Assembly (NCBI GenBank): GCA_012031965.1
Contig: JAAUSC010000019.1
Span: forward strand, 1-55,555
From: Scytonema sp. RU_4_4
GTDB taxonomy: Bacteria; Cyanobacteriota; Cyanobacteriia; Cyanobacteriales; Nostocaceae
Length of the DNA stretch: 55,555 bases
Direction: 5' to 3'
Shown: in pieces, positions 34,667 to 55,555 of the stretch
Layout: each line of letters opens with the position of its first letter
How positions within the stretch are numbered: the stretch's first letter is position 1
The notes under the pieces: model-generated
Told to the model about the DNA's origin: nothing
Databases searched by the model: none
What the model saw: the letters and a program-made list of their open reading frames with translations, nothing else
Position numbers and translations under genes: made by a program

Positions 34667-34963
34667 TTACTCAACAGAGAAATTAAGTGTGGTGTATCTC
34701 AAAGAGTCGATTTCATCAATAAATAATACCAATGGTCGCTCTGATGCTTGCGCCCAAACCTGCAAAGCACCTTGAATTCTTCGTCCTGGCTGTGCAGTAT
34801 TCCAATTGTCGGGAGGGCGTAAATCTTCTGGTAAATCAAACTGCGCGCTCGCTTTCCAAGAATCGAGAATAAGTATTTCTGCCGTGGCTGGCTCGTGACT
34901 GAAAGGTGCGCCTACCTCCGCCGATACCATAGCTGCTGCATAACGCCCGCTTTCTGTTATACT
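34667..34963 (-). pseudogene. remnant of an AAA-like ATPase gene
   Basis: Minus-strand translation gives ESGRYAAAMVSAEVGAPF, then GRRIQGALQVWAQASERP and LVLFIDEIDSLR, matching the internal part of large cyanobacterial AAA-like proteins, including the Walker B (LFIDEID). The Walker A region upstream is lost (stop at 34964-34966), and after DSLR the frame ends in unrelated residues. It is therefore a decayed fragment next to the MFS exporter gene. Confidence 0.75.
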
Positions 34964-35178
34964 TTAAACGGTTATAAACTGAGCTTTATTAAAAGTCTGA
35001 AATTTGAGACGAAGCAAGGAATTTAATTCCTTTGTATGTGTTTTGTGTGCAGTATCTATAAAATTAGAAATGGCTAGTTTAAATTCAGAAAACTCTGGAT
35101 AATACTTTGAATACAAACATTGTTTTTTGACCAATTTCCAGAATCGCTCTATAGCCTAAGTCAATCTGGAGGTCGAAC

Positions 35179-36492: not shown

Positions 36493-37002
36493 TATTGAAC
36501 CACTTTATCAGCATTGTTCATGACGCGTGATTCTTGATGAGGGTTGATTGGTTGACGCACACCAGCCTTAAGTTCCCTAGCTCAATTGTTAACAATTGAG
36601 CGAAAACTTTGCTTATACGTCCATTATTTTTGAGTTGCAGAAAAGCTCCACTTATTATGAATGAGGCAGCTAGCTACGTCAAACGACAGCCTGTCAAATT
36701 TGACATTAATCTTAATAATTTTATAAGGACTATATCAAGCGATAAATAGTTCATTTTTTGCTATTTTTTCAAATTTCTTAGTTTTGTACCAGACCGGATT
36801 CTTTGGGCTAAATCCATAGGATTGATTTTTTGAAACTCAAAGAGAGAATGTGACGGCTTTGTTGCAACTTAAATGCACATTAACTTGAGGATAAAGTTTG
36901 ACAGCTTGTCTTTTGACACTAACAGCTGCTTGACATACATTGATATAGTTTTTCCGACTGTGTACTGGGTGTAGTCTGCCATAAAGGATGTGAGGAATTG
37001 AG
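36493..37002. promoter_or_regulatory. divergent promoter region of the metallophore locus
   Basis: This 510-bp region separates the exporter and receptor genes. It contains a perfect 14-bp palindrome (36692-36705) and three closely spaced TTGACA boxes at 36898, 36913 and 36930, which are possible -35 elements for the receptor operon. I could not find a convincing -10 partner or a good 19-bp Fur consensus. Metal-responsive control is expected from the gene content but not demonstrated. Confidence 0.45.
36692..36705. promoter_or_regulatory. perfect 14-bp palindrome TGTCAAATTTGACA, candidate operator
   Basis: TGTCAAA and TTTGACA are exact reverse complements with no spacer. It sits about 200 bp from the exporter start and 300 bp from the receptor start, in the shared promoter region. 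It is not a standard Fur or Zur box; the regulator is unknown. Confidence 0.4.
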
Positions 37003-39574: not shown

Positions 39575-40756
39575 ATGAAAAAATTGGGATTACTCGCTAG
39601 CTTGTACGTGGTACAGTTTTTGCCCGTCGCTTTCTTCATGCAAACCCTACCCGTGTTTCTACGGCAACAAGGTGTTTCTTTAGAAGCAATCGGGCTAACC
39701 AACTTGCTCAGTTTACCCTGGACGCTGAAGGTACTTTGGTCACCCTTTGTTGATCGCTACGGTTGGACAAGATGGGGACACTATAAATCTTGGATTTTGG
39801 CGATGCAGAGTCTTTTATTTGTGACACTTATCTTTTGTGCATCATTGAACATTCAAACTCATTTTGTACTCCTTATCGTAGGTATGCTGTTAGCTACTTC
39901 ATTTGCAGCGACTCAAGATATCGCTACTGATGCTTTGGCTATTGGATTGCTCGAAGAGTCGGAACGGGGTTGGGGGAATAGTATTCAGACTGCTGGAGGT
40001 TATCTCGGCGGGATTCTAGGAGGCGGTGGACTTCTGGTGCTGCTAGATTATTGGGGCTGGACGGGGAGTTTATTGACAATGGCATTAAGTGCGTTATTGC
40101 TACTTATTCCTGTACTATTCCATCGCGAGAAATTAGCTGGTTATACGCCTAACCAAAACCTGAGTTGGACAGTGTTTGTTAAGTTCTTCCGCCGTCCGGG
40201 AATGGGACGCTGGATACTGATTTTATTGCTCTACATGATGGGAGTTACTATTGCTAATACAATGTTTCGTCCATTGCTAGTCGATCTGAAACTGTCTTTA
40301 GCACAGATTGGGATAATGAACGGGATAGTCGCCTACAGTGCAGGGATTGTGGGAGCTTTTGTCGGCGGATTTTTGATGAAACCTTTGGGACGAAAGCAAT
40401 CTCTGATTATATTTGGCGTGTTAATGGCGATCGCCAACGCCGCTTTTATTTTACCTACCCTAGGGTTGACTAGCTTACCCGTTCTCTATCTAGTCAGCAT
40501 TGGGTTTCAGTTTGCGTACAGCATGGCGTTGATCCCGATGTACACCGTCATGATGGACAAAAGTCGGTTAGGAACTGCTGGATTTGACTACACTTTGCAA
40601 GTTTCAATTGTTTTCGTTGGTAGCTTGATAGCTGGCGCGATGAGTGGCTTTATAGCTAAAGCGATTGGTTATCAGGGAGCGTTTGCTTTTAGTGCGGCGA
40701 TCGCTCTTGTTAGCGTTGCTGTCATTGTTAAAACCTTTGATGACTCTTACGCCTAG
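39575..40756 (+). CDS. RhtX/FptX-family siderophore permease (MFS)
   Basis: The 393-residue, 12-helix transporter resembles the RhtX/FptX and AmpG-like group, single-protein inner-membrane permeases that take up siderophores such as rhizobactin and pyochelin. Support: the N-terminal FMQTLPVFLRQQGVSLEAIGL, LPWTLKVLWSPFVDRYGWTRWGHYKSWIL, and SFAATQDIATDALAIGLLEESERGWGN, all typical of this branch. It directly follows the TonB receptor, giving an outer- plus inner-membrane import pair with no ABC system needed. Import of the intact chelate is inferred. Confidence 0.85.
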   Translation: MKKLGLLASLYVVQFLPVAFFMQTLPVFLRQQGVSLEAIGLTNLLSLPWTLKVLWSPFVDRYGWTRWGHYKSWILAMQSLLFVTLIFCASLNIQTHFVLLIVGMLLATSFAATQDIATDALAIGLLEESERGWGNSIQTAGGYLGGILGGGGLLVLLDYWGWTGSLLTMALSALLLLIPVLFHREKLAGYTPNQNLSWTVFVKFFRRPGMGRWILILLLYMMGVTIANTMFRPLLVDLKLSLAQIGIMNGIVAYSAGIVGAFVGGFLMKPLGRKQSLIIFGVLMAIANAAFILPTLGLTSLPVLYLVSIGFQFAYSMALIPMYTVMMDKSRLGTAGFDYTLQVSIVFVGSLIAGAMSGFIAKAIGYQGAFAFSAAIALVSVAVIVKTFDDSYA

Positions 40757-40831: not shown

Positions 40832-41728
40832 ATGAAAATCAATAGACCACCTTCAGAATGTATTGGTGCTGAGATTTTAGATGTAGATGTTGTTTCAGTC
40901 ATGGAAGCAGAAATCAACATAATTAAACAACTTGTATACGATTATAAATTGGTGGTTTTCAGAGATCAGAATCTTAACGAAGACCAATATTTAGAATTTG
41001 CTCGCAAAATTGGTACACCACAAATCTATCCTCAAGACAACTATCATCACCCAGATTATCCAGAAATTTTTGTGTCTTCTAATGTTCCCAAAGATGGAAA
41101 GAAATTTGGAGTTCGAGGGACTGGTAGATACTGGCATACTGACTGTGCATTTCTTGCTGAACCTCTGCCATTTACTATGCTATACCCGCAAGTCTTACCA
41201 AGTTCAATTAGAGAAACTTACTACATTGATATGCAGCAGGTTTATAAAAAACTGCCTTCAAAATTAAGAAGTTATGTCGATGAAAAATATCTGGTACACG
41301 AGGCGAAATGGCGTTATAAAGTGCAAGAGTGGGATATCGACAGAGCAGTCATAGATATTATGAATGATTTTGAAAAGAAATTTCCCCCTGTTAAACATCC
41401 AGCTATCATTACGCACCCCGTTACTCATGAAAAAATCTTGTACATGAATCAAGGTTTTACCACTGGAATCGTGGGTTTAAATTATGAAACGAATCAAGAA
41501 CTGTTGCAAGAATTATTCTCATTTATTGAATGTGAGGAGCATATTCATACGCATGTATGGAAAGACGGTGACATTCTTTTATGGGAGAACAGAACTCTGA
41601 ATCACAAAGCATCTATAGTACCAGAAGGAGAGAAAAGTGTCAGCTACCGTATCGGTCTTTACGATGGCTTACCATTTTATGTTTCTTCTAAACGGGTAAA
41701 AGAACAGTCAGAAATGCCTACGAAATAA
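40832..41728 (+). CDS. ScoE/Rv0097-type non-heme Fe(II) dioxygenase (isonitrile-forming, TauD fold)
   Basis: In the isonitrile lipopeptide pathway this 2-oxoglutarate-dependent enzyme converts an N-carboxymethyl-3-amino fatty acid to a 3-isocyano fatty acid by oxidative decarboxylation. Numbered from 40832, the metal triad is H102-x-D104 in RYWHTDCAF and H258 in TLNHKA, with R273 (SYRIGLYD) as the 2-oxoglutarate anchor. The segment EIFVSSNVPKDGKKFGV and the YPQ(V)LP region match ScoE rather than ordinary TauD. AGGAG at 40821 is 6 bp before ATG 40832; an ATG at 40829 and one at 40796 are in frame but less well placed. It lies 38 bp before the FcoT-like gene. Confidence 0.85.
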   Translation: MKINRPPSECIGAEILDVDVVSVMEAEINIIKQLVYDYKLVVFRDQNLNEDQYLEFARKIGTPQIYPQDNYHHPDYPEIFVSSNVPKDGKKFGVRGTGRYWHTDCAFLAEPLPFTMLYPQVLPSSIRETYYIDMQQVYKKLPSKLRSYVDEKYLVHEAKWRYKVQEWDIDRAVIDIMNDFEKKFPPVKHPAIITHPVTHEKILYMNQGFTTGIVGLNYETNQELLQELFSFIECEEHIHTHVWKDGDILLWENRTLNHKASIVPEGEKSVSYRIGLYDGLPFYVSSKRVKEQSEMPTK

Positions 41729-41766
41729 AGATTGTAGTAATTTACAAAGAAGTGGATAAGTGAGTT

Positions 41767-42363
41767 ATGGATATCAACCAGAAATTTACTAGGGTAGATG
41801 ATGTAGGTCAAGATTTATTGGATGTGTTTCTTGAGCCATATAAAGAGAATTGTAAGTATCTGAATCATGCTCATTTTCAATATACAGAGCCAAGTCATTT
41901 CGTTCATGAATCGACAAGCGCTCATCAAGGTTTATGGTTGATAAAAGCTGATTTTTCCATTCCAGAATCTTGCTATATTGAGGACACTGGTCACTTTAAT
42001 TCGGTAGAATTCAATATTTGCTATAATCAATTATTTTATATCATGATTGCTTATTTACTGAAAAATAAGTTATTTGAGGTGATGAAAGACTGGGATTTAG
42101 AAACTTATAAACGCCGTCAACTGAGTGACTTTCTGATTGTTAGATTTTCCAGCACTTTTAAAAAACCAATCAATTCTAAGAATTTTCAAGGAACTCTATC
42201 AATTAACAAATACTCCGCTCGTAGCAATTTGATTCTGTTAAAGACCTCGTGTACCTTTTTTGATAAAAATGGTGGTTGGTCTGAAGGTGATGTGACCATC
42301 GCTATATTGAATAGCGAGTCAGAAAAAACTGTTACTCATTCTCATGAATCTGTACCAGCTTAA
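41767..42363 (+). CDS. FcoT/ScoD-type hotdog protein (glycine adduct formation / thioesterase)
   Basis: The 198-residue protein matches the FcoT family (Rv0098, ScoD). In isonitrile lipopeptide assembly ScoD adds glycine to an alpha,beta-unsaturated acyl-ACP and releases the product. The recognisable core is DFSIPESCYIEDTGHFNSVEF followed by NICYNQLFYIMIAYLL; later FLIVRFSSTFKKPIN and WSEGDVTIAIL fit the hotdog strands. Its place between the ScoE-like dioxygenase and a free ACP reproduces the Sco/Rv0097-Rv0101 order. The assignment is from remembered family patterns, not a search. Confidence 0.78.
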   Translation: MDINQKFTRVDDVGQDLLDVFLEPYKENCKYLNHAHFQYTEPSHFVHESTSAHQGLWLIKADFSIPESCYIEDTGHFNSVEFNICYNQLFYIMIAYLLKNKLFEVMKDWDLETYKRRQLSDFLIVRFSSTFKKPINSKNFQGTLSINKYSARSNLILLKTSCTFFDKNGGWSEGDVTIAILNSESEKTVTHSHESVPA

Positions 42364-42403
42364 ACGTTAGTCGTTATTTTTCCAGAGCGTAAATTTTTCT
42401 GCC

Positions 42404-42811
42404 ATGCACTCTAAACTTGTTGGTGACACCGAACCAAAAAAAGAAGTCGAGCAGTCCATAGTACAGCCGCATGAGCTTTTACTAAAATGGGCGGAGATAA
42501 CTGCAAGTGAACGTCAAGCACTCTTAAGAGCTTATATTCAAGAGCAGATTGCCAAAGCGGTAGGGATAAGCGCATGCGATTTAGATGTGCAGCAGCCTCT
42601 TCAGTATTTAGGAATTGACTCGCTGATAGCCGTTAAGCTGAGGAATCGGCTGAGAACTGACTTGGAAGTGGACGTGTCTGCAGTGAAATTTATGGAGGAT
42701 TTCAGTGTTACCAGTCTGGCTACGCAACTGAGTGAACAGATCCTCTCTGAAGATAAAGAACACCTCAGGCAAAATGCAATGAGTGATGATTGGCTAGAAG
42801 GTGAGATATGA
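42404..42811 (+). CDS. stand-alone acyl carrier protein (ScoB-like)
   Basis: The 135-residue carrier protein has the phosphopantetheine site LGIDSLIAV, with Ser73 as attachment residue, preceded by a helix LLRAYIQEQIAKAVGI. It is longer than a bare ACP, with an N-terminal extension of about 35 residues and an acidic C-terminal tail. It would carry the fatty acyl chain during isonitrile formation, like ScoB. The stop overlaps the NRPS start as ATGA, suggesting translational coupling and a role in delivering the acyl starter to the first condensation domain. Confidence 0.85.
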   Translation: MHSKLVGDTEPKKEVEQSIVQPHELLLKWAEITASERQALLRAYIQEQIAKAVGISACDLDVQQPLQYLGIDSLIAVKLRNRLRTDLEVDVSAVKFMEDFSVTSLATQLSEQILSEDKEHLRQNAMSDDWLEGEI

Positions 42812-45800
42812 ATTTAGTTGAGTTTCTCAAAGATCTCTCGGTGCAGAATGTCGAGTTGTGGCTTGATGGTGACCGACTGCGTTATCGTGGTCCCAAAGAA
42901 GCATTGACTCCCATACTGTTAAATAAAATTAAGCAGCATAAATCAGAAATTATACAGTTGCTGCGCGAGGGTTTTCACATCTCTAAATCCTATCCCCTGA
43001 CCCACGGTCAGCAAGGTTTGTGGTTTTTGTATAAGCTGGCACCTGAGAGTGCGGCTTACAACATTGCTTTTACCGCACGCATATGCTCCGATTTAAATGT
43101 TCCAGCTTTGCAACGGGCTTTTCAGGCGTTAATAGTTCGCCATGCAACACTACGTACTACATTTAGTCAACGAGATACTGAACCCTTTCAAGAGGTTCAT
43201 GAATACCAGGAAGTTTGCTTTGAGGAGATTGACGCTTCCACTTGGAACTCTTATGAGCTTACCCAAAAGGTGATTGAGGTATATCGGCGTCCCTTCGATT
43301 TGGAACGAGGACCCGTGCTGCGCTTGTGTCTGTTTACTAGCTCTGCACAAGACTACGTGCTTTTACTGACAATTCATCACATTGCTGTCGATGGCTTCTC
43401 ATTTGGCATTCTTCTGGATGAGTTGCGCTTGCTCTACCAGTCGGAAAATACTGGTCAAGCGGTATCTCTACCTCCCATTAACTGGCAATATAGGGACTTT
43501 GTACAGTGGCAACGCTCAATGTTGGCAAGTCCTGTTGGAGATAATCTTTGGACTTATTGGCACAAACAATTAGCTGGTGAACTACCAGTATTAAAATTGC
43601 CGAGCGATAGACCTCGACCGCCAATTCAAACCTATCAAGGAGCTTCTTATACCTTTGAACTGCCCTTAGAGTTAACTACCAAGCTAAGGGAAATGGCGAA
43701 GGCTCAAGGAGCAACCCTTTACATGACTCTCCTGACAGCCTTTCTAGTGCTGCTTCACCGCTACACGGGTCAGGAAGATATTATAGTTGGCTCTCCCACT
43801 GAGGGGAGAAGTCAGCCTGAATTCGCCGGAACTGTGGGCTTTTTTGTCAATATGCTTGCTCTGCGAGTCAATATTACTGGCAATCCCACGTTTTGTGCGC
43901 TTTTATCCCAAGTGCGCCAGACGGTATTAAGCGCGATCGCCCATCAAGATTATCCCTCTCCAATATTGATCGAGCAATTGCAAGTAAACCGCGATCCCAG
44001 CCTTCCAGGACTTTTCCGAGTTTCATTTAATCTCTTGAGATTGCTGGAAATTGCGGAGAACTATGAATTATCTGTATCCAATCAAACAAGAATTAGAGAA
44101 GATTGGGGAGGATTAACGCTAGAGCCGTTTGTCATACCACAGCAGGAAGGACAGAATGATTTAGTCTTCGACATGATGGAGACAAAGGAATTGCTGCTTG
44201 GTATCTTCAGGTACAACACAGATCTATTTGATGCGACGACAATTAGCCGAATGGTTGGTCATTTCCAAACCTTACTGGACTGTATTGTTACTAATTCAGA
44301 GCAGCAAATTTCGTCATTACCCCTGCTAACCGCAGCCGAACAACATCATTTACTGTTGGAGTGGAACAATACGCAAGTAGAGTATCCCCAGGATAAGTGT
44401 ATTCATCAGTTGTTTGAGAGCTTTGTAAAAATGACCCCAAATGCGGTAGCAGTGGCATTTAAAGACCAGCAACTGACTTACCAACAGTTAAACATCCGAG
44501 CAAATCAACTGGCACACTACTTACAAAGGTTAGGGGTAAGACCAGAAGTACTAGTGGGCATTTGTGTCGAACGCTCCCTAGAGATGGTCGTGGGATTACT
44601 GGCGATTCTCAAAGCGGGTGGGGCTTATGTGCCATTAGACCCCGCTTACCCCAAAGAGCACTTGACTTTTATGCTTAAAGATGCAGAGGTGTCGGTGCTG
44701 TTGACTCAGCAAAGACTAGTGGAATATCTTCCAGAGCAGAGCGCACGTGTCGTTTTCTTAGACAAAGACTGGGAGGTCATTTCCCAGGAGAGCCAAGCAA
44801 ATCTGCTTAGCAATGCTACATCCCAAAATTTAGCCTACGTGGTTTACACATCGGGTTCTACAGGCAAGTCTAAGGGTGTGATGATTGCTCATCGCAGTCT
44901 GGTTAATGCATATCAGGTTTGGGAAAACGCATATCAGCTTCGGTCCCTGACTAGTCATCTCCAAATGGCTAGTTTTTCTTTTGATGTTTTTTCAGGGGAT
45001 TTGATTCGCGCTCTTTGTTCTGGGGCGAAATTAGTGTTATGCCCGCGTGAGTGGCTTTTGGAACCTCAGGAACTGTATAAACTGATGCTAGCCCAGAAGA
45101 TTGATAGCGCAGAGTTTGTTCCGGCTGTTCTGAGGAACTTGGTTGAGTATCTGGAAAGAACCAAGCAAAATCTTCACTTCATGCGGTTGCTAGTAGTAGG
45201 TTCAGATAGCTTGTATGTTAAGGAGTATGAGGAATTTCAGCGTTTGTGCGGTCCTGATACTCGCTCTTATAATTCCTATGGGGTCACTGAAGCCACCATT
45301 GACAGTACGTATTTTGAAAGTAAAAAAGTTAACTTGCCTGTTGATAGGTTAGTCCCGATTGGACGTCCGTTTGCCAATACGCAAATCTATATACTAGACC
45401 GTCATCTCCAAAGCGTTCCCATCGGAGTTCCTGGCGAATTGCATATAGGAGGTGTTGGTCTTGCCCGAGGTTACCTCAACCGACCGGACTTGACTGAGGA
45501 GAAATTCATCTCCAACCCCTTTAACAATTCAAAATCGCGAAGCGTTGCGAGCGAAGCGACGCAATCTCAAAATTCAAAATCTGATCGCCTGTATAAAACT
45601 GGGGACTTAGCTCGTTATCTTCCTGATGGTAACATCGAGTTTCTTGGTCGGATTGATAATCAGGTAAAGATTCGTGGCTTCCGCATCGAACTTGGGGAAA
45701 TTGAAGCGGTACTGAGGACACATCCTCAAGTACGAGAAGCGGTGGTGATTGCCCACCAAGAACAAGCGGACAACAAATCCCTAGTTGCTTATATTGTTTT

Positions 45801-46557
45801 TTACCAAGAGTTTCTAAGCATTCATGAGGTGCGTAACTTCCTTAAACAGAAGCTGCCGGAGTACATGGTACCATCTGCTTTTGTGATGCTAGAGGCTCTG
45901 CCTTTGACTCCCAACGGCAAGGTAGACCGACGTGCCTTGCCTGCACCAGATAGGTCACAGAATCGGATCTCAGACTTTGTACCACCCCGGACGCCTACAG
46001 AAGAAGCGATCGCCAACATTTTCGCCTCCGTCCTCAAACTAGAACAAGTGGGCATCGACGACAACTTCTTTGAGTTGGGAGGACATTCCCTACTCGCCAC
46101 TCAAGTCATTTCTCGATTGCAGCAAACCTTTAACGTCGAGTTTCCTCTACGCTGCCTATTAAAATCCCCCACAGTCGCTGAACTTCATCAGACTGTCTTA
46201 GAATACCGCCAAGTTGAATCCCCGCTTGCCCAAAAATCTTTTGTTCTTCTACCAACAATAGTACCTGCTCTGGAGCAGCGCTATCAACCCTTCCCCCTGA
46301 CTGACATCCAACAAGCTTACTGGCTGGGTCGTAATGAAGCCTTTGAGCTTGGCAACATTGCTGCTCACGGTTACATAGAGATTGACAGTAATAACTTAAA
46401 TCTGGAAAGGTTAAACCTGGCTTGGCAGAAACTCATTTTGCGTCATGATATGTTGCGAGCAGTGGTTTTACCAGATGGTCAGCAACAAATTCAAAAACAG
46501 TGCCTCCCTATGAGATTGAGGTTTTGGACTTGCGTGGACAGCCACCTGAAGCCATAA
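42808..46557 (+). CDS. NRPS 1, 5' part: TubC docking-C-A(Orn/Lys-like)-PCP-Cy(part), frameshifted
   Basis: First synthetase, read in the upstream frame. Domains: TubC-type docking (1-57), condensation (62-500, HHIAVDG near 190), adenylation (about 535-1045, A3 YTSGSTGKSKG), PCP (LGGHSLL, Ser near 1093), then the first 90 residues of a heterocyclization (Cy) domain starting FPLTDIQQAYWLGR at about 1161. The hand-read A-domain code is DVGELVSIDK, close to codes for ornithine/lysine-type amino acids. The Cy domain is cut by a frameshift near 46500, and the last 19 residues are off-frame. The two halves should be one protein of about 2,489 residues. By analogy with ScoA, the first module acylates a diamino acid with isonitrile fatty acid. 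Confidence 0.88.
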   Translation: MNLVEFLKDLSVQNVELWLDGDRLRYRGPKEALTPILLNKIKQHKSEIIQLLREGFHISKSYPLTHGQQGLWFLYKLAPESAAYNIAFTARICSDLNVPALQRAFQALIVRHATLRTTFSQRDTEPFQEVHEYQEVCFEEIDASTWNSYELTQKVIEVYRRPFDLERGPVLRLCLFTSSAQDYVLLLTIHHIAVDGFSFGILLDELRLLYQSENTGQAVSLPPINWQYRDFVQWQRSMLASPVGDNLWTYWHKQLAGELPVLKLPSDRPRPPIQTYQGASYTFELPLELTTKLREMAKAQGATLYMTLLTAFLVLLHRYTGQEDIIVGSPTEGRSQPEFAGTVGFFVNMLALRVNITGNPTFCALLSQVRQTVLSAIAHQDYPSPILIEQLQVNRDPSLPGLFRVSFNLLRLLEIAENYELSVSNQTRIREDWGGLTLEPFVIPQQEGQNDLVFDMMETKELLLGIFRYNTDLFDATTISRMVGHFQTLLDCIVTNSEQQISSLPLLTAAEQHHLLLEWNNTQVEYPQDKCIHQLFESFVKMTPNAVAVAFKDQQLTYQQLNIRANQLAHYLQRLGVRPEVLVGICVERSLEMVVGLLAILKAGGAYVPLDPAYPKEHLTFMLKDAEVSVLLTQQRLVEYLPEQSARVVFLDKDWEVISQESQANLLSNATSQNLAYVVYTSGSTGKSKGVMIAHRSLVNAYQVWENAYQLRSLTSHLQMASFSFDVFSGDLIRALCSGAKLVLCPREWLLEPQELYKLMLAQKIDSAEFVPAVLRNLVEYLERTKQNLHFMRLLVVGSDSLYVKEYEEFQRLCGPDTRSYNSYGVTEATIDSTYFESKKVNLPVDRLVPIGRPFANTQIYILDRHLQSVPIGVPGELHIGGVGLARGYLNRPDLTEEKFISNPFNNSKSRSVASEATQSQNSKSDRLYKTGDLARYLPDGNIEFLGRIDNQVKIRGFRIELGEIEAVLRTHPQVREAVVIAHQEQADNKSLVAYIVFYQEFLSIHEVRNFLKQKLPEYMVPSAFVMLEALPLTPNGKVDRRALPAPDRSQNRISDFVPPRTPTEEAIANIFASVLKLEQVGIDDNFFELGGHSLLATQVISRLQQTFNVEFPLRCLLKSPTVAELHQTVLEYRQVESPLAQKSFVLLPTIVPALEQRYQPFPLTDIQQAYWLGRNEAFELGNIAAHGYIEIDSNNLNLERLNLAWQKLILRHDMLRAVVLPDGQQQIQKQCLPMRLRFWTCVDSHLKP
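45524..45582 (+). repeat. palindromic repeat inserted in frame in the first A domain
   Basis: CAATTCAAAAT, then GCGAAGCGTTGCGAGCGAAGC, then AATTCAAAAT: a GC-rich palindromic unit bracketed by ATTCAAAAT copies. It adds about 18 residues (NSKSRSVASEATQSQNSK) where related A domains go directly from FNP to RLYKTGDL. It keeps the frame open. Confidence 0.75.
46495..46505 (+). other. frameshift site splitting NRPS 1
   Basis: The sister Cy domain in NRPS 2 continues QQILEKVPCYEISILDLRG. Here the upstream frame reads QQQIQKQ then CLPMR, while the next frame reads VPPYEIEVLDLRG. Inserting one G after 46500 (CAG-GTG-CCT-CCC) joins both halves exactly. No slippery heptamer supporting programmed frameshifting is seen. 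Confidence 0.9.
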
Positions 46558-49500
46558 CCGCACAGCTAGAAACCATTCGTCATCAGATGTCTCATGAAGT
46601 CTTGCCTGCACAGCAAGGACCTCTGTTCAAGCTTCGAGCCACTCGTTTAGATAAACAGCGCACTCGACTTCACCTCAGTTTTGACGCTTTGATAGGCGAT
46701 GCCTTGAGTCTGTTTGTGCTTGTCCGAGAGTGGAGTTTATTATACCAGAATCCTGAGCTTGTATTGCCGCCACTGGAAATCTCATTTCGGGATTATGTTC
46801 TTGCAGAGTTAGCTCTACAAGATACGCAACAATATCGGCGTTCTCAGGAGTATTGGTTCAGTCGCCTAGACACCTTACCTCCAGCGCCAGAATTACCTCT
46901 GGCTAAGAACCCCAGTTCCATAACCAAACCTCAGTTCAAACGTCGCAGTGCTGAACTGTCCCCAGCCCAATGGCAACAATTGAAAAACCGGGCTAACCAA
47001 GTCAATCTGACTCCTTCCGGAGTGTTGCTGAGTGCTTTTGCTGAAATCCTCAGCCAGTGGAGCAAAAGTGCAAAATTTATCATCAATCTCACCCTGTTTC
47101 ATCGTTTGTCCTTACACCCTCAAGTCAATGACCTTGTAGGAGATTTCACGTCACTGACACTTCTGGAAGTAGACAACTCAGTCTCTAATTCCTTTACGAT
47201 CCGTGCTCAACAATTACAGCAGCATCTGTGGCAGGATTTAGACCACGGCTATGTTAGTGGCTTGCAGGTTCAACGAGAACTAAGCCGTCAGCAACAGAAT
47301 TATCAATTTATGCCAGTTGTTTTTACCAGCACTCTGGGTTTGGACTCACTTGGTCACAACAGATCAATCCTGAATCAGTTAGGAGAGGTGGTCTACAGCA
47401 TTAGCCAAACACCACAAGTGTGGCTGGATCATCAAGTCAGTGAGCAAAATGGAGCGTTAGTATTCAACTGGGATGCGGTAGAAGAACTCTTTCCTGAAGG
47501 TCTTCTCGACGATATGTTTGGGGCTTACTGCCATTTTCTTGAGCAGCTAGCGACTTCTTCCTCAGCTTGGGTTGAGACTTACCGACAATTACTACCACAG
47601 GCTCAACTCTCCCAACGAACTGCGGTGAATGATACTGCTGCACCTGTTTTGTCACAAACCTTGCACGGTCTGTTTATCAACTCCGTTCAATTGCAAGCGC
47701 GATCGCCCGCAGTCATGACACAAGAGCGCACCCTCACTTACCAGCAATTGTACCAACTTGCCAGTCAGTTAGCACATCGATTGCGGCAGTTGGGAGCCAC
47801 TGCCAACACCCTGGTTGCTGTTGTGATGGACAAGGGGTGGGAGCAGATTGTCGCGGTACTGGGAATCTTAATGTCCGGAGCGGCTTATCTGCCCATCGAT
47901 CCGGGACTTCCTCAGGAGCGACAGTGGTACCTGCTTGCACAAGGGCAAGTCAAACTGGTTGTGACTCAGCCCCACCTTGATCGCCTCCTGTCTTGGCAAT
48001 CAGGTATTCAGCGTTTCTGCGTTGAGACTGAGGAGTTGGAACAAAGCAACTCTAGCTCCCTAGAATCAGTGCAGACTACTGATTTAGCTTATGTTACTTA
48101 CACTTCCGGTTCCACAGGTCTACCCAAAGGGGTGATGATTGACCATCGGGGTGCAGTCAATACCATCCTCGACATTAATCAGCGCTTTGGAATTGGACCA
48201 TCTGACCGCGTGTTAGCCCTGTCAGCGTTGAACTTTGACCTATCAGTGTACGATATCTTTGGGATACTGGCGGCAGGAGGAGCAATTGTCATCCCTGCAC
48301 AAGAAGCAACCAAAGACCCTGCTGACTGGCTAGAGTTAATGGTGTCAAGTCAAGTCACCCTGTGGAACTCAGTTCCGGCGCTGATGCAGATGTTGGTGGA
48401 ATATTTGTCCACACAGCCAGAAAAAGCACCAACATCACTGCGTTTGGCTTTGTTGAGTGGGGATTGGCTACCTCTTAGTTTACCAGAGCAAATTCAAGCG
48501 CTATGGTCAAATCTCAAGATAGTGAGTTTGGGGGGAGCAACCGAGGCTTCCATTTGGTCGATTTGCTATCCGATTTCGACAGTTGACCCAAATTGGAAGA
48601 GTATTCCCTATGGACAACCGCTGAAGAATCAACGTTTTTATGTTTTCAATGAGTTGATGGAACCATGTCCGGTGTGGGTACCTGGACAGCTTTATATTGG
48701 GGGGATAGGACTGGCAAAAGGTTACTGGCGGGATGAAGACAAGACAAAAGCCAGCTTTATTACCCATCCTTTGACTCAAGAGCGGTTGTACAAAACTGGC
48801 GATTTGGGACGCTATTTACCCGATGGCAATATTGAGTTTCTGGGGCGGGAGGATTTTCAGATCAAAATCAATGGCTACCGCATTGAACTTGGTGAAATTG
48901 AGGCGGCTTTGAAACATCATCCCATTATTAAGGAGGCGGTAGTCACTGCGGTAGGAGAGTCACAAAAAAACAAGCAGCTTGTGGCTTATGTTGTCCCCGA
49001 TCAAGAATCTATCTCTACCAATCCACTTTCACCAAATCAAAATTTAGTAGAAGCTTACCAACCCCGTCAACTTGAAGGAGTAGTGCTTGATCCTGTAGAA
49101 CGCATTGAATTTAAGCTTCAGCAACCAGGATTACGACAGCTAGAATCTTCTCAAACCAGTATCCAGTTGCCCAAACCTAAATTTGATGAAGCCCTAACCC
49201 AAGCATACCTTGAGCGTCAAAGTTATCGGCAATTTCTGCCTCAACCTATTTCTTTGGAACAGTTTAGCCAGTTTTTAAGCTGCCTTTCTCAGATGAAACT
49301 GGATGATTATCCTCTACCAAAATATCGTTATCCTTCTGCCGGGAGTCTCTATCCTGTGCAGACTTACTTGTTCATTAAACCCAACCGAGTGGAAGGTCTA
49401 GAAGCAGGTATATACTATTACTATCCTGCTGACCATCGTTTGCTATTACTTAATGCCATCAGCGAAATTGAGAGCAGTGTATATGGTGGCAATCAACTAC

Positions 49501-50276
49501 TTTTTGAGCAATCCGCCTTTCAGTTGTTTTTGATCGGCAAACTAAGTGCTATTACCCCGATGTATGGGGAACGGGCATTGGACTTCTGTCTCCTAGAAGC
49601 GGGTCATATCGGTCAGTTGCTGATGAACTCCGCACCAACACACCAAATTGGACTCTGTCCCATTGGCTACCTAGAATTTGCCGAACTGCAAGATTTATTT
49701 AGGCTGGAATCAAGCCAGGTTCTGCTTTATAGCTTTGTGGGTGGGAGAATAAATTTAACTCATACCAAGCAGTGGTTGTCGCCCAAAACGACTCAGAGGT
49801 CGCAGTCAATTTCTGACCAGTGGCGGGAATACCTTCAATATAAGCTACCAGAGTACATGGTGCCTTCTCAGTATATTCTCTTAGATATTTTGCCTCTCAC
49901 TCCCAATGGAAAGGTAGATCGCAAAGCATTACCTAGTCCCAATATAGCATCGAAGTTGGAAGTGGTCTTAGCGCCTCCAAAAACTGAAATGGAGCAAACT
50001 TTAGCCAAAATTGTGCAAGAACTCCTTCAGATAGAGGCAGTAGGTATCCATAATAATTTCTTTGAGTTGGGGATGGATTCATTGAAATTAGTTCAGTTGA
50101 GAAACCAGTTGCTTTCCTCACTAGGAGTCAACGTATCTATGAAGCAATTGTTGGTAGAAGCAACCAATATTGCAGAACTGGCTTTGACTGTGGATGAGCA
50201 ATTAACATTGGCAAAAATCAAACAAAAGCCCTTATCTACTCAACTTAGCGATGATAAGGAGAGATTCACATTATGA
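46500..50276 (+). CDS. NRPS 1, 3' part: Cy-A(Cys)-Ox-PCP, continuation after the frameshift
   Basis: This frame completes the first synthetase; the apparent start at 46500 is artificial. Domains in this frame: rest of the Cy domain with its DxxxxD motif (FDALIGD, D62/D67), adenylation (about 395-1185), and a terminal PCP (LGMDSLKL, Ser near 1194). The A domain has the classical cysteine code DLYNLSLIWK. Between its A8 and A10 motifs, at about 855-1100, an FMN-dependent SagB/McbC-type oxidase is inserted (YRYPSAGSLYPVQTYLF), as in thiazole-forming NRPSs. The module should therefore cyclise and oxidise Cys to a thiazole. The stop overlaps the next NRPS start (ATGA). Confidence 0.88.
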   Translation: MPPYEIEVLDLRGQPPEAITAQLETIRHQMSHEVLPAQQGPLFKLRATRLDKQRTRLHLSFDALIGDALSLFVLVREWSLLYQNPELVLPPLEISFRDYVLAELALQDTQQYRRSQEYWFSRLDTLPPAPELPLAKNPSSITKPQFKRRSAELSPAQWQQLKNRANQVNLTPSGVLLSAFAEILSQWSKSAKFIINLTLFHRLSLHPQVNDLVGDFTSLTLLEVDNSVSNSFTIRAQQLQQHLWQDLDHGYVSGLQVQRELSRQQQNYQFMPVVFTSTLGLDSLGHNRSILNQLGEVVYSISQTPQVWLDHQVSEQNGALVFNWDAVEELFPEGLLDDMFGAYCHFLEQLATSSSAWVETYRQLLPQAQLSQRTAVNDTAAPVLSQTLHGLFINSVQLQARSPAVMTQERTLTYQQLYQLASQLAHRLRQLGATANTLVAVVMDKGWEQIVAVLGILMSGAAYLPIDPGLPQERQWYLLAQGQVKLVVTQPHLDRLLSWQSGIQRFCVETEELEQSNSSSLESVQTTDLAYVTYTSGSTGLPKGVMIDHRGAVNTILDINQRFGIGPSDRVLALSALNFDLSVYDIFGILAAGGAIVIPAQEATKDPADWLELMVSSQVTLWNSVPALMQMLVEYLSTQPEKAPTSLRLALLSGDWLPLSLPEQIQALWSNLKIVSLGGATEASIWSICYPISTVDPNWKSIPYGQPLKNQRFYVFNELMEPCPVWVPGQLYIGGIGLAKGYWRDEDKTKASFITHPLTQERLYKTGDLGRYLPDGNIEFLGREDFQIKINGYRIELGEIEAALKHHPIIKEAVVTAVGESQKNKQLVAYVVPDQESISTNPLSPNQNLVEAYQPRQLEGVVLDPVERIEFKLQQPGLRQLESSQTSIQLPKPKFDEALTQAYLERQSYRQFLPQPISLEQFSQFLSCLSQMKLDDYPLPKYRYPSAGSLYPVQTYLFIKPNRVEGLEAGIYYYYPADHRLLLLNAISEIESSVYGGNQLLFEQSAFQLFLIGKLSAITPMYGERALDFCLLEAGHIGQLLMNSAPTHQIGLCPIGYLEFAELQDLFRLESSQVLLYSFVGGRINLTHTKQWLSPKTTQRSQSISDQWREYLQYKLPEYMVPSQYILLDILPLTPNGKVDRKALPSPNIASKLEVVLAPPKTEMEQTLAKIVQELLQIEAVGIHNNFFELGMDSLKLVQLRNQLLSSLGVNVSMKQLLVEATNIAELALTVDEQLTLAKIKQKPLSTQLSDDKERFTL

Positions 50277-53200
50277 ACAGAAATGAACTTTTAACTGAAC
50301 TCGACAAACGGGGTGTGAAATTATGGGTTGAAAATGACCAATTAAGTATTGAAGCACCAAAAGGAGTATTGACAAAAGAGCTGCTTGACTCATTGGCAAA
50401 GCATAAATTAGAGATTATCCGCTTGCTACGCTTAACCGATACAAACGCAACTTCTCTACCAGTCATTGAGCCAGATCCTAACAGGCGATACGAACCTTTT
50501 CCTCTGACTGACATCCAGCAAGCTTATTGGGTGGGGCGCAGTGGCATATTTGAGTTAGGCAATGTAGCCATTAATGGTTACATTGAATTTGAAGCTAGCA
50601 ATTTAGATCTGTCACGGCTTACATACGCTTGGCAGAAGTTAATTGAGCGCCACGATATGCTGCGAGCTGTCGTTCTACCTACAGGTGAGCAACAGATTTT
50701 AGAGAAAGTTCCATGCTATGAAATTTCAATATTAGATCTGCGAGGACTGGAAGGGAAAGAAGTAGACACTCAGCTAAAAGCCATTCGAGAAAAATTATCC
50801 CACCAAGTGTTACCGTCACACCAGTGGCCCTTGTTTGATATTCGAGCCACTTATTTGGACAAGCAGCGCGTCCGACTTCACATCTGTATAGATTTATTGA
50901 TGATGGATGCTGCGAGTATTCGGATTCTGTTTCAGGAGTGGAATAAACTTTACCAGAATCCTGGAATTTTCTTAACACCATTGGAACTATCATTCCGGGA
51001 CTATGTTACCAATAAGAAAGTCCTGGAAGATCCAGATTTGGTGAAGCTATCGCAGGATTACTGGTTCAGCCGTTTAGACACTTTACCCCCAGCACCAGAA
51101 TTACCTCTAGCTTATTTCCCTCGTGAGCTAAAAGACTATCGATTCAAACGTCGCCGTGCTCAACTGGAACCTAATACTTGGCAGCAATTAAAGCAGCGAG
51201 GAAAAAATGTCGGTTTGACTCCTTCTGTCATATTGCTTGCTGCTTTTGCCGAAGTTTTAACAGTGTGGAGCAAAAATCCTCGGTTTACTATCAATCTCAC
51301 TATATTTGAGCGTCTTCCCCTGCATCCTCAGGTTAATCAAATTATTGGAGATTTTACTAATACAAATTTATTAGCAGTAGACAATTCAGCCCAAGATACA
51401 TTTATTGTTCGTGCTTTGCGACTACAGCAGCAATTGCTACAAGATTTAGACCATCTTCATATCAGTGGGGTGCAGGTACTGCGGGAATTGGCTCGTCGCC
51501 GGAAAACTGGATTAACCGCAGTTATGCCAATAGTTTTTACCAGTATTTTAGGTTTAAATTCTTCTTCTGAGGAAGATTTAGAGTTCAATTTTTTGGGAGA
51601 AGAGGTCTACAGCATCAGCCAAACACCACAAGTATGGTTAGATCATCAAGTCACGGAGCTTCAGGGGGCATTAGTATTCAATTGGGATGTGGTAGAAGAA
51701 CTCTTCGGTGTTGGTCTTCTCGACGATATGTTTGGGGCTTACTGCCATTTCCTAAAGGAGTTGGCACAGGAGGATAAACTGTGGCATTCCCCGACGCGAG
51801 AACTTCTGCCACCAGCACAGGTGAAGCAACTAGTTGCTGTTAACACAACCGCTACACCAATTCCAGAAGCTGCCTTACTCCATACCTTGTTTTTTGAGCA
51901 AGTGCCTTGGCGTCCACAGCAGGCGGCTGTAGTTACCACCCATCGTACCCTAACGTATCAAGAGTTAGGCGATCGCGCAACTGAGCTAGCACATCAACTG
52001 CGACAACTGGGCGTTCGCCCTAATCAGCTGGTAGCGATTGTGATGGAGAAAGGCTGGGAGCAAGTTGTGGCTGCCTTAGGCATTCTTGCCGCTGGTGCTG
52101 TTTATGTGCCGATTGACCCTGGACTTCCAACTGAACGCCGATGGTATCTTTTGCAACAGGCAGAAGTCCAACTGGTGCTCACCCAGACCCGACTTGACAC
52201 CACCCTAGATTGGCCAGAGAACATACAACGCCTTTGTATAGATTCTAATTTCAAACAGTCGCCGGAAACATCTCTGCGTAAACAGCCATTAGAGGCAGTG
52301 CAAAAACCGGAAGACCTCGCCTATGTCATCTACACCTCTGGCTCTACAGGAATGCCCAAAGGTGTGATGATTTCGCATCAAGGTGTAGTCAACACTATCC
52401 TTGACATCAACCAACGCTTTCATGTCAATGCTGATGACCGAGTTTTAGCTCTCTCTTCTCTGAGTTTTGATTTATCGGTTTACGACATCTTCGGCACTTT
52501 AGCCGCTGGAGGAACTATTGTTATTCCAGAAGCTGCCAGCACTAAAGACCCAGTTCATTGGACACAACTCATTATAAAACACCAAGTTACAGTCTGGAAC
52601 TCAGTTCCTGCTTTAATGCAGATGTTAGTGGAGTATGCCTCAGCTCATCCTGAAATTGCATTCAACACTCTGAGGTTAGTCTTAATGAGTGGCGATTGGA
52701 TACCGTTAAGCTTACCTGACCAGATAAAAGCTTTGTCCAACTCTGTAAAAGTGATTAGCCTTGGAGGTGCTACCGAAGCATCTATTTGGTCTATTCTCTA
52801 TCCTGTGGGGGAGGTAAATTCAGTCTGGAAGAGCGTTCCCTACGGTCGTCCAATGGCTAACCAGCGCTTTTATGTGCTTAATGAAACGCTACAACCACGT
52901 CCGGTATGGGTTCCTGGACAGCTCTATATTGGGGGTATTGGACTCGCTAAAGGTTACTGGCGCGACGAAGAAAAGACCCAAGCTAGCTTTATTATTCATC
53001 CTCAGACCAAGGAGCGGTTGTATAAAACTGGCGACTGGGGTCGTTATTTACCCGATGGCAATATTGAGTTTCTGGGGCGGGAGGATTTTCAGGTCAAAAT
53101 CAATGGCTACCGTGTCGAACTCGGTGAAATTGAGGCGGCTTTGAAACAGCATTCTGCAATCAAAGAGGCAATCGTTACTGTTGTAGAAGAGCGAGGTAAG

Positions 53201-54556
53201 GTACTGATAGGTTACGTGGTTCCAGAACCTGGGAAAGTCTCCGAAATTTTTGATGTTCCTGAGACAGATTCACAACAGAAACCTAACACCACTCGCAGCG
53301 AACTGCGTCGCTTTCTCAAAGAAAAGCTACCAGAGTACATGGTACCTTCTGCCTTCGTGCTGTTAGAATCATTGCCGCTAACACCTAATGGCAAAGTGGC
53401 TCGTCAGGCGCTTCCTGCTCCCGAGCGCACGAAACCGGAGTTAGAAAAAACTTTTGTATCTCCTCGCGACAAAGTTGAGGAATTGCTGGTAGCAACTTGG
53501 ACTGAAGTATTCCGGCTTGAACGCATAGGCATCCATGACGACTTCTTTGAGTTGGGTGGAGACTCGTTTTTGGCGCTTCAACTTATCTCGAAAATTAATC
53601 AAAAACTTGGCACAAACCTATCGCTTGGTATACTTTTTCAGCATCCAACCCTGGCAGAGCTAGCAAATTATATCACAAAAAATACTGATACTTCAGTAAA
53701 ATCCACATATTTAGTTCCTATCCAAGTTGAAGGAACTCAGCCCCCGTTGTTCTGTATTCACCCAGCAGGGGGACAAGTGATGGTGTATCAGCACCTGGCG
53801 GCTTGTCTAGGACCAGATCAACCTGTCTACGGTATACAGTCTTGTGCTCTCAACGATCTAACTCAAGAGCATACTAGCATCGATAATATGGCTGTTGAAT
53901 ACACCAAGGTCATTCGCCAGCATCAACCCGATGGTCGTTATTATCTCATGGGTTGGTCTATGGGCGGGGTACTTGCTGTAAGTGTTGCTCAAGAGTTAGA
54001 GCAACAAGGACAGAAGGTTGCTTTTGTTGGACTTGTGGATGCCTTTTTAATTTCAGATAATACACCAACTTTTGAACGCGACCCCTTGCACGAACTGGCA
54101 TTGGTGTTCGGCGGTACTTTCGTTGATGCTTTCATGGCTCTGGATGCTGTTGAACAGCAGGGATTGCGAGACGAGCTTATAAGTTTGCTAACTTTAGAAC
54201 GTCTGCGGCGGATAATGGTCTGGGGACAAGAACGAAACCTACTCTCGACTGAGATTTCTGTGGAGTTCCTACAAAAACAAGTAAATCTCACTGAGATTCA
54301 CGAACAACTGCTTAGAGTTCACCGCGCACCTCAAATTCAAGCTAGGCTCTATGTCTGGTGGGCTTTGGATAAGCTCGACGGAGGACTGTCTCGTACCAAC
54401 TGGAGTCAATACACTACAGACGCAAGCTACACGGAAATTGTTGATGGTAACCACTTCACTGTAATGCGTACTCCACATATTCAGACCCTTGCTCAGAGAT
54501 TGCAAGAATGCCTTCGGGCTGTGCGCTCATCAGAGTTAAAGAGTCAGGAAAATTAA
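50273..54556 (+). CDS. NRPS 2: TubC docking-Cy-A(Cys)-PCP-TE
   Basis: The 1,427-residue second synthetase is intact. Domains: TubC-type docking (1-56), heterocyclization (about 76-510, DxxxxD as D207/D212), adenylation (about 540-1045) with cysteine code DLYNMSLIWK, PCP (LGGDSFLAL, Ser near 1099), and thioesterase (about 1150-1415) with GWSMGG nucleophile (Ser near 1228) and a catalytic His in GNHFTVM. There is no oxidase here, so the ring should remain a thiazoline. The TE releases the product by hydrolysis or cyclisation, unlike the reductive release of ScoA. It is coupled to NRPS 1 by a 4-bp overlap. Confidence 0.92.
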   Translation: MNRNELLTELDKRGVKLWVENDQLSIEAPKGVLTKELLDSLAKHKLEIIRLLRLTDTNATSLPVIEPDPNRRYEPFPLTDIQQAYWVGRSGIFELGNVAINGYIEFEASNLDLSRLTYAWQKLIERHDMLRAVVLPTGEQQILEKVPCYEISILDLRGLEGKEVDTQLKAIREKLSHQVLPSHQWPLFDIRATYLDKQRVRLHICIDLLMMDAASIRILFQEWNKLYQNPGIFLTPLELSFRDYVTNKKVLEDPDLVKLSQDYWFSRLDTLPPAPELPLAYFPRELKDYRFKRRRAQLEPNTWQQLKQRGKNVGLTPSVILLAAFAEVLTVWSKNPRFTINLTIFERLPLHPQVNQIIGDFTNTNLLAVDNSAQDTFIVRALRLQQQLLQDLDHLHISGVQVLRELARRRKTGLTAVMPIVFTSILGLNSSSEEDLEFNFLGEEVYSISQTPQVWLDHQVTELQGALVFNWDVVEELFGVGLLDDMFGAYCHFLKELAQEDKLWHSPTRELLPPAQVKQLVAVNTTATPIPEAALLHTLFFEQVPWRPQQAAVVTTHRTLTYQELGDRATELAHQLRQLGVRPNQLVAIVMEKGWEQVVAALGILAAGAVYVPIDPGLPTERRWYLLQQAEVQLVLTQTRLDTTLDWPENIQRLCIDSNFKQSPETSLRKQPLEAVQKPEDLAYVIYTSGSTGMPKGVMISHQGVVNTILDINQRFHVNADDRVLALSSLSFDLSVYDIFGTLAAGGTIVIPEAASTKDPVHWTQLIIKHQVTVWNSVPALMQMLVEYASAHPEIAFNTLRLVLMSGDWIPLSLPDQIKALSNSVKVISLGGATEASIWSILYPVGEVNSVWKSVPYGRPMANQRFYVLNETLQPRPVWVPGQLYIGGIGLAKGYWRDEEKTQASFIIHPQTKERLYKTGDWGRYLPDGNIEFLGREDFQVKINGYRVELGEIEAALKQHSAIKEAIVTVVEERGKVLIGYVVPEPGKVSEIFDVPETDSQQKPNTTRSELRRFLKEKLPEYMVPSAFVLLESLPLTPNGKVARQALPAPERTKPELEKTFVSPRDKVEELLVATWTEVFRLERIGIHDDFFELGGDSFLALQLISKINQKLGTNLSLGILFQHPTLAELANYITKNTDTSVKSTYLVPIQVEGTQPPLFCIHPAGGQVMVYQHLAACLGPDQPVYGIQSCALNDLTQEHTSIDNMAVEYTKVIRQHQPDGRYYLMGWSMGGVLAVSVAQELEQQGQKVAFVGLVDAFLISDNTPTFERDPLHELALVFGGTFVDAFMALDAVEQQGLRDELISLLTLERLRRIMVWGQERNLLSTEISVEFLQKQVNLTEIHEQLLRVHRAPQIQARLYVWWALDKLDGGLSRTNWSQYTTDASYTEIVDGNHFTVMRTPHIQTLAQRLQECLRAVRSSELKSQEN

Positions 54557-54601
54557 TAAACTTAGCTTGAGCAATATAGATGCAATTGTTGAGGAATGTC
54601 G

Positions 54602-55549
54602 ATGATATATAACGATGAAATCCAAACACTAGCAGATTTAGCACGCATGCAAGCGCATCAATTTCCAGAAGACAAGGCGTTAATTCTTAAGGATAAAGCG
54701 CTCACCTATTTACAGTTACATGTACAAAGTAATCGCGTTGCTAATGCACTTTTAGCGCATGGAGTTAAAGCGAAATCAAGAGTTGCATTATTGGCTAAAG
54801 ATTCACTCAAGAGTTATGAAATATTATTTGCGTGTAACAAGGTAAATGCTGTCTTGGTGCCTATTAATTGGCGTTTAGCTGCTGTAGAAGTGAGCTATAT
54901 TTTAAGAGATGCCAATGTTGAAGTTCTTTTTGTCGGACCTGAGTTTCACACGTTGGTTGAATCTATTAGAGATGAGCTTGATGGTGTTAAAAGCATTATT
55001 GCCTTAGAAAAAGCTGAACAGAACTGCCTAACTTACGATAATTGGTGCCAACAACATAGTGATGTTCAACCTAATGTCGTCGTTGAAGCACATCATGTAG
55101 CAGTGCAAATTTATACCAGTGGCACTACGGGACGACCCAAAGGTGTCCAACTGGCACATCACAGTTTCTTTGCTATTGCCAAAGAATTTGTTAAGCAAGG
55201 TAAAAGCTGGATAGGTTGGAGTGAAACAGATAAGAGCTTGTTGGTTTTACCTTTCTTTCATATAGGAGGTTTATGGTGGGCTATCCGTGGTTTAGCATCC
55301 GGTGCCGAAAATATTTTGCTGGAAACTTTTGATGGAATTGAGGTTCTCAAAGCCATTGAAAAATACCGCATCACAAAGACCTGTATGGTGCCCGCAATGA
55401 TTCAAGTTCTGTTAACTGAACCATTATGTAAACAAACGGATTTTCATCACTTGAATATATTGTTTACGGGGGTTCTCCTATTGCTGAATCACTACTTAAA
55501 GAGGCGATGGCAACATTTTCCTGCAACTTTGTGCAAATTTATGGCATGA
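54602..55549 (+). CDS. acyl-CoA/ACP ligase, ScoC/FadD10-like (partial at edge, frameshifted)
   Basis: An ANL-superfamily adenylating enzyme that in the isonitrile pathway activates the fatty acid and loads it on the ACP. It has the N-terminal A-type pattern DKALILKDKALTYLQL, the P-loop IYTSGTTGRPKGV, and VLPFFHIGGLWWAIRGL. ATG 54602 has GAGG 7 bp upstream; ATG 54596 is only 1 bp from it. The frame breaks at the G-run 55468-55472. Adding one G restores LFTGGSPIAESLLKEAM and FVQIYGMTE, open to the window end at 55555. The 55549 stop is thus off-frame and the true gene continues beyond the window. Confidence 0.85.
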   Translation: MIYNDEIQTLADLARMQAHQFPEDKALILKDKALTYLQLHVQSNRVANALLAHGVKAKSRVALLAKDSLKSYEILFACNKVNAVLVPINWRLAAVEVSYILRDANVEVLFVGPEFHTLVESIRDELDGVKSIIALEKAEQNCLTYDNWCQQHSDVQPNVVVEAHHVAVQIYTSGTTGRPKGVQLAHHSFFAIAKEFVKQGKSWIGWSETDKSLLVLPFFHIGGLWWAIRGLASGAENILLETFDGIEVLKAIEKYRITKTCMVPAMIQVLLTEPLCKQTDFHHLNILFTGVLLLLNHYLKRRWQHFPATLCKFMA

Positions 55550-55555
55550 CCGAAA

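Follow-up and report, generated by a model that had tools for sequence, protein, structure and literature searches.

The 55,555-base window analysed here is an entire contig of the 7.3-Mb draft genome (400 contigs) of the cyanobacterium Scytonema sp. RU_4_4, and its downstream part carries a locus in which a ScoE-like dioxygenase and an FcoT/ScoD-like enzyme adjoin a nonribosomal peptide synthetase (NRPS) with two cysteine-heterocyclization modules; the contig ends at base 55555. We consider it probable that this locus makes, exports and re-imports a metallophore joining one or more isonitriles, ornithine, a thiazole and a thiazoline. Judging from its genes, the product would most likely be a short-chain mono- or di-(3-isocyanoacyl)-Orn-thiazole-thiazoline acid acting as a metallophore, with copper as the first candidate. 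What is new is the joining of parts of two known kinds, the isonitrile and the thiazole/thiazoline pathways, with an uncharacterised enzyme branch. The gene content, the domains, the codes of the adenylation (A) domains, the kinship with ScoE and FcoT and the association with transport genes were read directly from the sequence, and the features are as follows:

35179..36492, - strand: MFS exporter candidate (MFS_1/MFS_3; EntS-like), divergent to the rest of the locus (Pfam MFS_1, MFS_3)
36580..36601, no strand: perfect 22-bp palindrome, possible operator, in the divergent promoter region between the exporter and TonB genes
37003..39555, + strand: TonB-dependent receptor with AMIN domain (PF07715, PF00593, PF11741)
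39575..40756, + strand: MFS permease of the AmpG / RhtX-FptX kind, putative inner-membrane uptake (TIGR00901, TIGR02718, both below cut-off)
40832..41728, + strand: ScoE-like Fe(II)/alpha-ketoglutarate dioxygenase, divergent branch (TauD family PF02668, 154.9 bits; tree; predicted structure)
41767..42363, + strand: FcoT/ScoD-like enzyme, by family a putative enoyl-ACP glycyltransferase (PF10862, 195.9 bits, cut-off 27)
42404..42811, + strand: free acyl carrier protein (ACP) (PF00550, 41.5 bits; LGIDSL motif)
42808..46557, + strand: NRPS-1, with TubC dock, condensation (C) domain (HHxxxDG), A (code DVGEVGSID), PCP and the start of a heterocyclization (Cy) domain; frame lost near 46.5 kb
46500..50276, + strand: NRPS-2, with the rest of Cy (DxxxxDxxS), A (code DLYNLSLIW) with inserted Ox, and PCP; one gene with NRPS-1 in Brasilonema sp. 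CT11
50273..54556, + strand: NRPS-3, with TubC dock, Cy, A (code DLYNLSLIW), PCP and type I thioesterase (TE; GWSMG), from domains and motifs
54596..55549, + strand: acyl-adenylate ligase, partial, in the ScoC/FadD10 position (PF00501, 196.3 bits)

Based on a listing of open reading frames (ORFs) and a profile search with Pfam and NCBIfam, every gene that an earlier reading made from the letters alone (the sequence-only reading) had placed in 40832-55555 was recovered there on the + strand. We count three additional upstream genes into the locus, namely the exporter, the TonB receptor and the permease. The exporter is included because 18 of 28 other ScoE/FcoT loci have a homologue (62-78% identity) in their fetched DNA, and the gene itself shares 76% DNA identity with an MFS gene adjoining FadD in Westiellopsis; it scores 132.8 bits with the NCBIfam EntS model, under the cut-off of 324. 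In the receptor, PF07715 and PF00593 exceed their cut-offs, while the TonB siderophore receptor model reaches 184.4 bits (cut-off 223.5). The permease scores 195.7 bits with AmpG TIGR00901 (cut-off 350) and 191.0 bits with RhtX/FptX TIGR02718 (cut-off 356.15).

Domains and motifs order the assembly line as C-A(Orn)-PCP, Cy-A(Cys)-Ox-PCP, Cy-A(Cys)-PCP-TE, the Ox domain of NRPS-2 being a nitroreductase family match. Alignment gave the pocket letters DVGEVGSID for A1 and DLYNLSLIW for both A2 and A3, at positions that we assume to be those of the pocket; we take DVGE(I/V)GSID to denote ornithine and DLYNLSLIW cysteine. No reductase domain was present among the Pfam matches of the NRPS ORFs, where a thioesterase takes its place. 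The biosynthetic logic proposed in the sequence-only reading, i.e., a diamino-acid module (ornithine by its code), a cysteine-derived thiazole, a cysteine-derived thiazoline and thioesterase release without a reductase, therefore stands. In Brasilonema sp. CT11, the nearest named relative at the locus, an extra NRPS module with A code DAWKFGLID lies ahead of the Orn module (L051, 6186-16808), so close relatives probably make different products. The Westiellopsis line (L050, 7695-11072) has no thioesterase match, whereas a thioesterase is present in the ten other two-Cys clusters whose sequence was followed to the end.

The gene beside the dioxygenase encodes a clear FcoT/ScoD homologue, as had been proposed: besides the PF10862 match, it scores 157.2 bits with the NCBI curated ScoD equivalog model (cut-off 250 not reached) and matches the Rv0098 structure 2pfc with E 2.2e-25. 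The ligase fragment, whose CT11 homologue has 525 aa, reaches 106.6 bits with the FadD10 model (cut-off 726), which is not its best match.

The architecture is not unique to the window, and its recurrence across many genomes excludes a chance association. In a phylum-wide sample, 2 of 386 genomes had an FcoT match above the family cut-off; within the family, 20 of 217 genomes had one, including 2 of the 7 same-genus genomes (the window's own counted). Scanning 84,980 species genomes by pattern yielded 54 relatives, 18 of them cyanobacterial. We compared 25 cyanobacterial loci, window included, which are classed by their ScoE and FcoT as A-type (14, among them the window) or B-type (11); G543, with FcoT over the cut-off, three stops and no ScoE match in the fetched DNA, and the sub-cut-off G416 and G223 were excluded from the counts. 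Matching clusters in other cyanobacteria, which the sequence-only reading had suggested looking for, were thus found, with Cys-heterocyclization modules at 15 of the 25 loci. Among these 15 Cy2-bearing clusters, Ox was present in 13 and TonB receptor plus permease in 13 within the fetched DNA; the remaining clusters are truncated, at least in part, where the contig or the fetched DNA ends. Both A domains behind Cy domains carry the Cys code in 12 clusters, window included; the Pelatocladus A2 is one letter off, and SIO2E9 is a thirteenth cluster with the code, having one broken A domain. Symploca SIO3C6 has a single Cy module.

We infer isonitrile formation, the number and length of the acyl chains, the metal and the directions of transport as follows. 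The ligase would load a fatty acid onto the free ACP, FcoT would attach glycine at the beta carbon, and the ScoE-like dioxygenase would produce an isonitrile by oxidising and decarboxylating the N-carboxymethyl group. The first C domain would then transfer the 3-isocyanoacyl chain, probably short and probably to both amines, onto ornithine. Two cysteines would be added by the following modules, one ending as a thiazole (with Ox) and the other as a thiazoline, before the thioesterase releases the acid. For this acid, the calculated [M+H]+ is 396.1159 with one C4 isocyanoacyl chain and 491.1530 with two, rising by 14.0157 for each additional CH2 in each chain; applied to the ScoABCE product, this calculation reproduces the published value of 323.2078. 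The MFS protein at 35179-36492 would export the product, and the TonB receptor and RhtX/FptX-type permease would return its metal complex. A re-imported metallophore is the best reading because the receptor and permease genes adjoin the biosynthetic genes.

By analogy with the diisonitrile chalkophores, Cu(I) is the likeliest metal, with iron or zinc also possible. Thiazoline/thiazole chelators are mostly Fe ligands, and the permease is partly RhtX/FptX-like, both of which would suit a pyochelin/yersiniabactin-like siderophore for iron or zinc in which the isonitrile is incidental. Likewise, both Fe and Cu are bound by the lusichelins, cyanobacterial compounds holding thiazoline and thiazole rings, according to the retrieved passages of PMC12210259. 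Such a siderophore, or else an antibiotic that is not a metallophore, is a somewhat unlikely identity for the product. In the retrieved passages of PMC9600254, SF2768 and its congeners show strong binding of Cu(I) but not of Zn, and copper limitation, unlike zinc limitation, impairs mycobacterial nrp mutants; a pure antibiotic is countered by the uptake genes found with 13 of 15 heterocyclizing clusters.

The dioxygenase, which the sequence-only reading had assigned to ScoE and not to TauD, groups with ScoE in our tree, and its predicted structure agrees, although within the tree it sits in a branch separate from canonical ScoE. The tree was built with 17 of the 36 non-cyanobacterial loci among the 54 relatives from the scan and an outgroup of 14 of 28 available TauD-family loci plus E. 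coli TauD; SyrP is absent from it, and the tree tool flagged the long outgroup branches. The window enzyme keeps seven ScoE residues, namely His132, Asp134, His295, Tyr96, Lys193 and Arg310 (Fe ligands and substrate residues) and Arg157; Tyr101 is likewise kept. Like ScoE, the window enzyme has Phe at the position matching Rv0097 residue 204 (taken to be glycine in the wild type, given the variant name G204F), which suggests a short acyl chain.

The main argument that the A-type enzyme forms an isonitrile comes from its exchange with the canonical one. Between Westiellopsis prolifica (A pair) and Pelatocladus (B pair), DNA identity is 90.9-92.5% over permease and TonB genes and 90.5-90.7% over ACP and NRPS genes, while the ScoE-FcoT stretch is unalignable (33% and 38% protein identity); FadD and the exporter are relocated and 74% identical. 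The first C domain of Westiellopsis is 87-89% identical to that of ten B-type clusters. Symploca SIO3C6 is the opposite case: its NRPS is the closest to that of the window (Cy2 80%, Ox 78%), and its ScoE and FcoT are of B type (75% to N. linckia). In the ScoE+FcoT tree, A and B each form a single group (support 100, quick method), whereas the Cy2+A2+Ox tree of 13 clusters, to which SIO3C6 was added and from which SIO2E9 and CHAB 5836 were dropped for want of an Ox match, rejects the B-type clusters as one clade (p-AU 2.3e-6). The simplest reading would be at least two replacements of the ScoE-FcoT pair as a unit. Since the exchange happens beside nearly the same NRPS, both pairs would pass the same kind of acyl group to it from the same acyl donor; the A and B pairs thus look interchangeable, and isonitrile formation by the A-type enzyme is the best reading.

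Several observations weigh against this. The dioxygenase scores 268.7 bits with the NCBI curated ScoE equivalog model and does not reach its cut-off of 400. His299, Arg195 and Tyr97 of ScoE are replaced by Ile, Gln and Pro in the window, and they are missing from all 14 A-type cyanobacterial enzymes and from four planctomycete/Bacteroidota relatives. All three are present in 25 of 25 actinobacterial and proteobacterial rows (those passing a length and score filter), and the B-type enzymes have Arg195 and Tyr97 in 11 of 11, with Tyr299 in 10 and His299 in 1. The retrieved passages of PMC7949033 report that ScoE H299Q lost both succinate and isonitrile formation, that substitution of Tyr96, Tyr101 or Arg195 left no product and that substitution of Tyr97 left less. 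Because of the sub-cut-off score and these missing residues, isonitrile formation is a prediction. Additionally, a concatenated NRPS tree of 14 clusters without SIO3C6 places A and B clusters on either side of one branch (support 99, a value of the same kind), with no conflict; in it, the rows of CHAB 5836 (contig end; flagged as a long branch) and probably Halotia (transposase insert) hold non-homologous letters. The second exchange therefore rests on one contig of a metagenome-assembled genome (MAG), since the conflict between NRPS and ScoE/FcoT is formal only with SIO3C6 included.

These residue losses would also fit a divergent dioxygenase whose oxidation ends elsewhere, with a hydroxylated, imine or N-formyl-type product, giving an acyl-Orn-thiazole-thiazoline metallophore that lacks the isonitrile, as would the fact that our structure comparisons turned up no solved member of the A branch. 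We judge this outcome unlikely: the residues that grip the substrate are retained, and the pair is swapped with a canonical ScoE-FcoT pair beside a near-identical NRPS. Returning to the isonitrile product, we also advance, as a tentative proposal, that the A branch consists of isonitrile-forming oxygenases able to dispense with the mobile histidine site considered essential for ScoE, that in cyanobacteria the two kinds of ScoE-FcoT pair (A and B) replace each other as a plug-in starter cassette for a common Orn-thiazole-thiazoline line, and that the product is a TonB-imported isonitrile-thiazole copper scavenger of a compound class not yet described.

The frame is lost twice in the window. The first Cys module is divided between two overlapping ORFs, 42808-46557 and 46500-50276, with a break near 46.5 kb, and the ligase gene loses its frame near 55470 (by eye) before being truncated by the contig end. 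Both breaks would be expected of a decaying pseudo-cluster, which we consider quite unlikely for this copy. In CT11, the frames are open at the positions matching both breaks, and the stretch matching NRPS-1 and NRPS-2 is a single uninterrupted ORF of 3540 aa, so intact copies of the split gene exist; in Westiellopsis prolifica, too, the NRPS frames are open. The remaining genes are open, with dN/dS of 0.13-0.29 in eight comparisons with CT11 (0.12-0.29 over nine values against CT11 and SIO2E9), and sequencing errors in a draft assembly of 400 contigs are a possible source of the breaks. Finally, that the dioxygenase is an ordinary TauD/SyrP-type hydroxylase adjoining FcoT by accident is highly improbable, since isonitrile enzymes rank above TauD in tree and structure, which largely rules out a generic TauD, and a ScoE-like match occurs at 48 of the 54 FcoT loci (one of the 48 partial) and is absent from 6.

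The palindrome at 36580-36601 is the sole match in the window at up to 3 mismatches (0.01 expected), and its 20-bp core has a single genomic occurrence at up to 2 mismatches. A rough motif scan gave no Fur/Zur-like sites in 36493-37002 and weak matches scattered elsewhere. Upstream of the exporter, 33300-35100 holds only short ORFs without a Pfam match, among them an 87-aa piece (34667-34930) that resembles an ATPase remnant by eye.

Shorter A-type lines were also present: C-A-TE, or C-A with a weak TE match, in G382, G509, Nostoc FACHB-110 and G421, and C-A-C-A in Scytonematopsis and the B12 bin, while the A-type Leptolyngbyaceae SM1_3_5 has three Orn-type modules. The A-type loci of the Okeania and Symploca SIO2C1 MAGs (L066, L068) have ScoE, FcoT and ligase with no NRPS match within reach of the fetched DNA, and could possibly make free isocyano fatty acids. 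In planctomycetes and Aquimarina (L109, L114, L074, L106), an A-type ScoE-like gene, FcoT and a ligase lie near distant NRPSs (C domain 25-34% identical to that of the window). The ScoE and FcoT set is not confined to lipopeptide clusters: the pairs of L077, L099, L091 and L104 adjoin large ORFs that look like polyketide synthases by eye, a judgement made with no domain search, and the two of them tested for NRPS gave hardly any signal, so the pair may serve other assembly lines also. The B-type cluster of Halotia branconii (L117, NZ_CP124544.1) is carried by a plasmid of 250 kb. An IS701 transposase separates pieces of its last NRPS module, and upstream of the cluster lie CobW, DUF1636 and another TonB receptor. 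An intein-bearing DNA gyrase B gene (intein splicing and LAGLIDADG domains; L102, 11739-16292) adjoins the Symploca SIO3C6 cluster.

Isonitrile chalkophores have been studied chiefly in Streptomyces and mycobacteria. If our reading is true, this locus would represent such a system in a photosynthetic, Gram-negative organism, equipped with outer-membrane uptake of its own and with mixed isonitrile/thiazoline ligands. The two ScoE branches, one without a reportedly essential residue and seemingly doing the same job beside a near-identical NRPS, would also provide a natural experiment on the ScoE mechanism. Among the literature matches listed in a full-text search of Creative Commons-licensed papers, there was no report of a ScoE-type pathway in cyanobacteria, and the words isonitrile, isocyan-, copper and chalkophore are absent from the main text of the metallophore-mining paper PMC12971057. 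The retrieved passages of PMC4558948 describe, for Subsection V cyanobacteria, four orphan clusters that contain genes for a dioxygenase (taurine-dioxygenase-like) and/or a glycosyltransferase, and in which NRPS genes follow the dioxygenase genes; these clusters could possibly be an earlier, unrecognised sighting.

Among the closest relatives are the 11 B-type loci (Nostoc linckia z4, N. carneum NIES-2107, Pelatocladus, the Halotia branconii plasmid and others), which share with the window the NRPS, TonB receptor, permease, ligase and exporter families. Unless truncated by a contig end, their C1, Cy2, A2 and Ox domains are about 66-80% identical to those of the window, whereas their ScoE and FcoT belong to the canonical branch and are each 35-38% identical. 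Pyochelin and yersiniabactin clusters also combine Cy and Cys-specific A domains with TonB/MFS transport genes, as does that of lusichelin in the retrieved passages of PMC12210259. Compared with these three, the window has no salicylate starter, its starter would be a beta-aminated acyl chain on ornithine, and the ScoE/FcoT pair is present.

With the isonitrile lipopeptide (INLP; diisonitrile chalkophore) clusters, i.e., ScoA-E of Streptomyces coeruleorubidus, Sfa of S. thioluteus, Mma of M. marinum and Rv0096-Rv0101 of M. tuberculosis, the window shares the dioxygenase, FcoT/ScoD, free ACP, a candidate ligase and an NRPS whose first module takes a diamino acid. ScoA and MmaA release their product reductively by a terminal reductase; the window has instead a thioesterase and no reductase. 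It also differs by two added Cys-heterocyclization modules with Ox, by the TonB receptor, permease and exporter, and by a dioxygenase on a separate branch from ScoE, without His299, Arg195 and Tyr97. In the M. tuberculosis compound, one further NRPS module extends the Orn core (retrieved passages of PMC9600254), and an Orn core plus NRPS extension is likewise what the window encodes. We would not file the window strictly as an INLP cluster, because its scores lie below the model cut-offs and it lacks the ScoE residues and reductive release; nevertheless, it most likely works like one.

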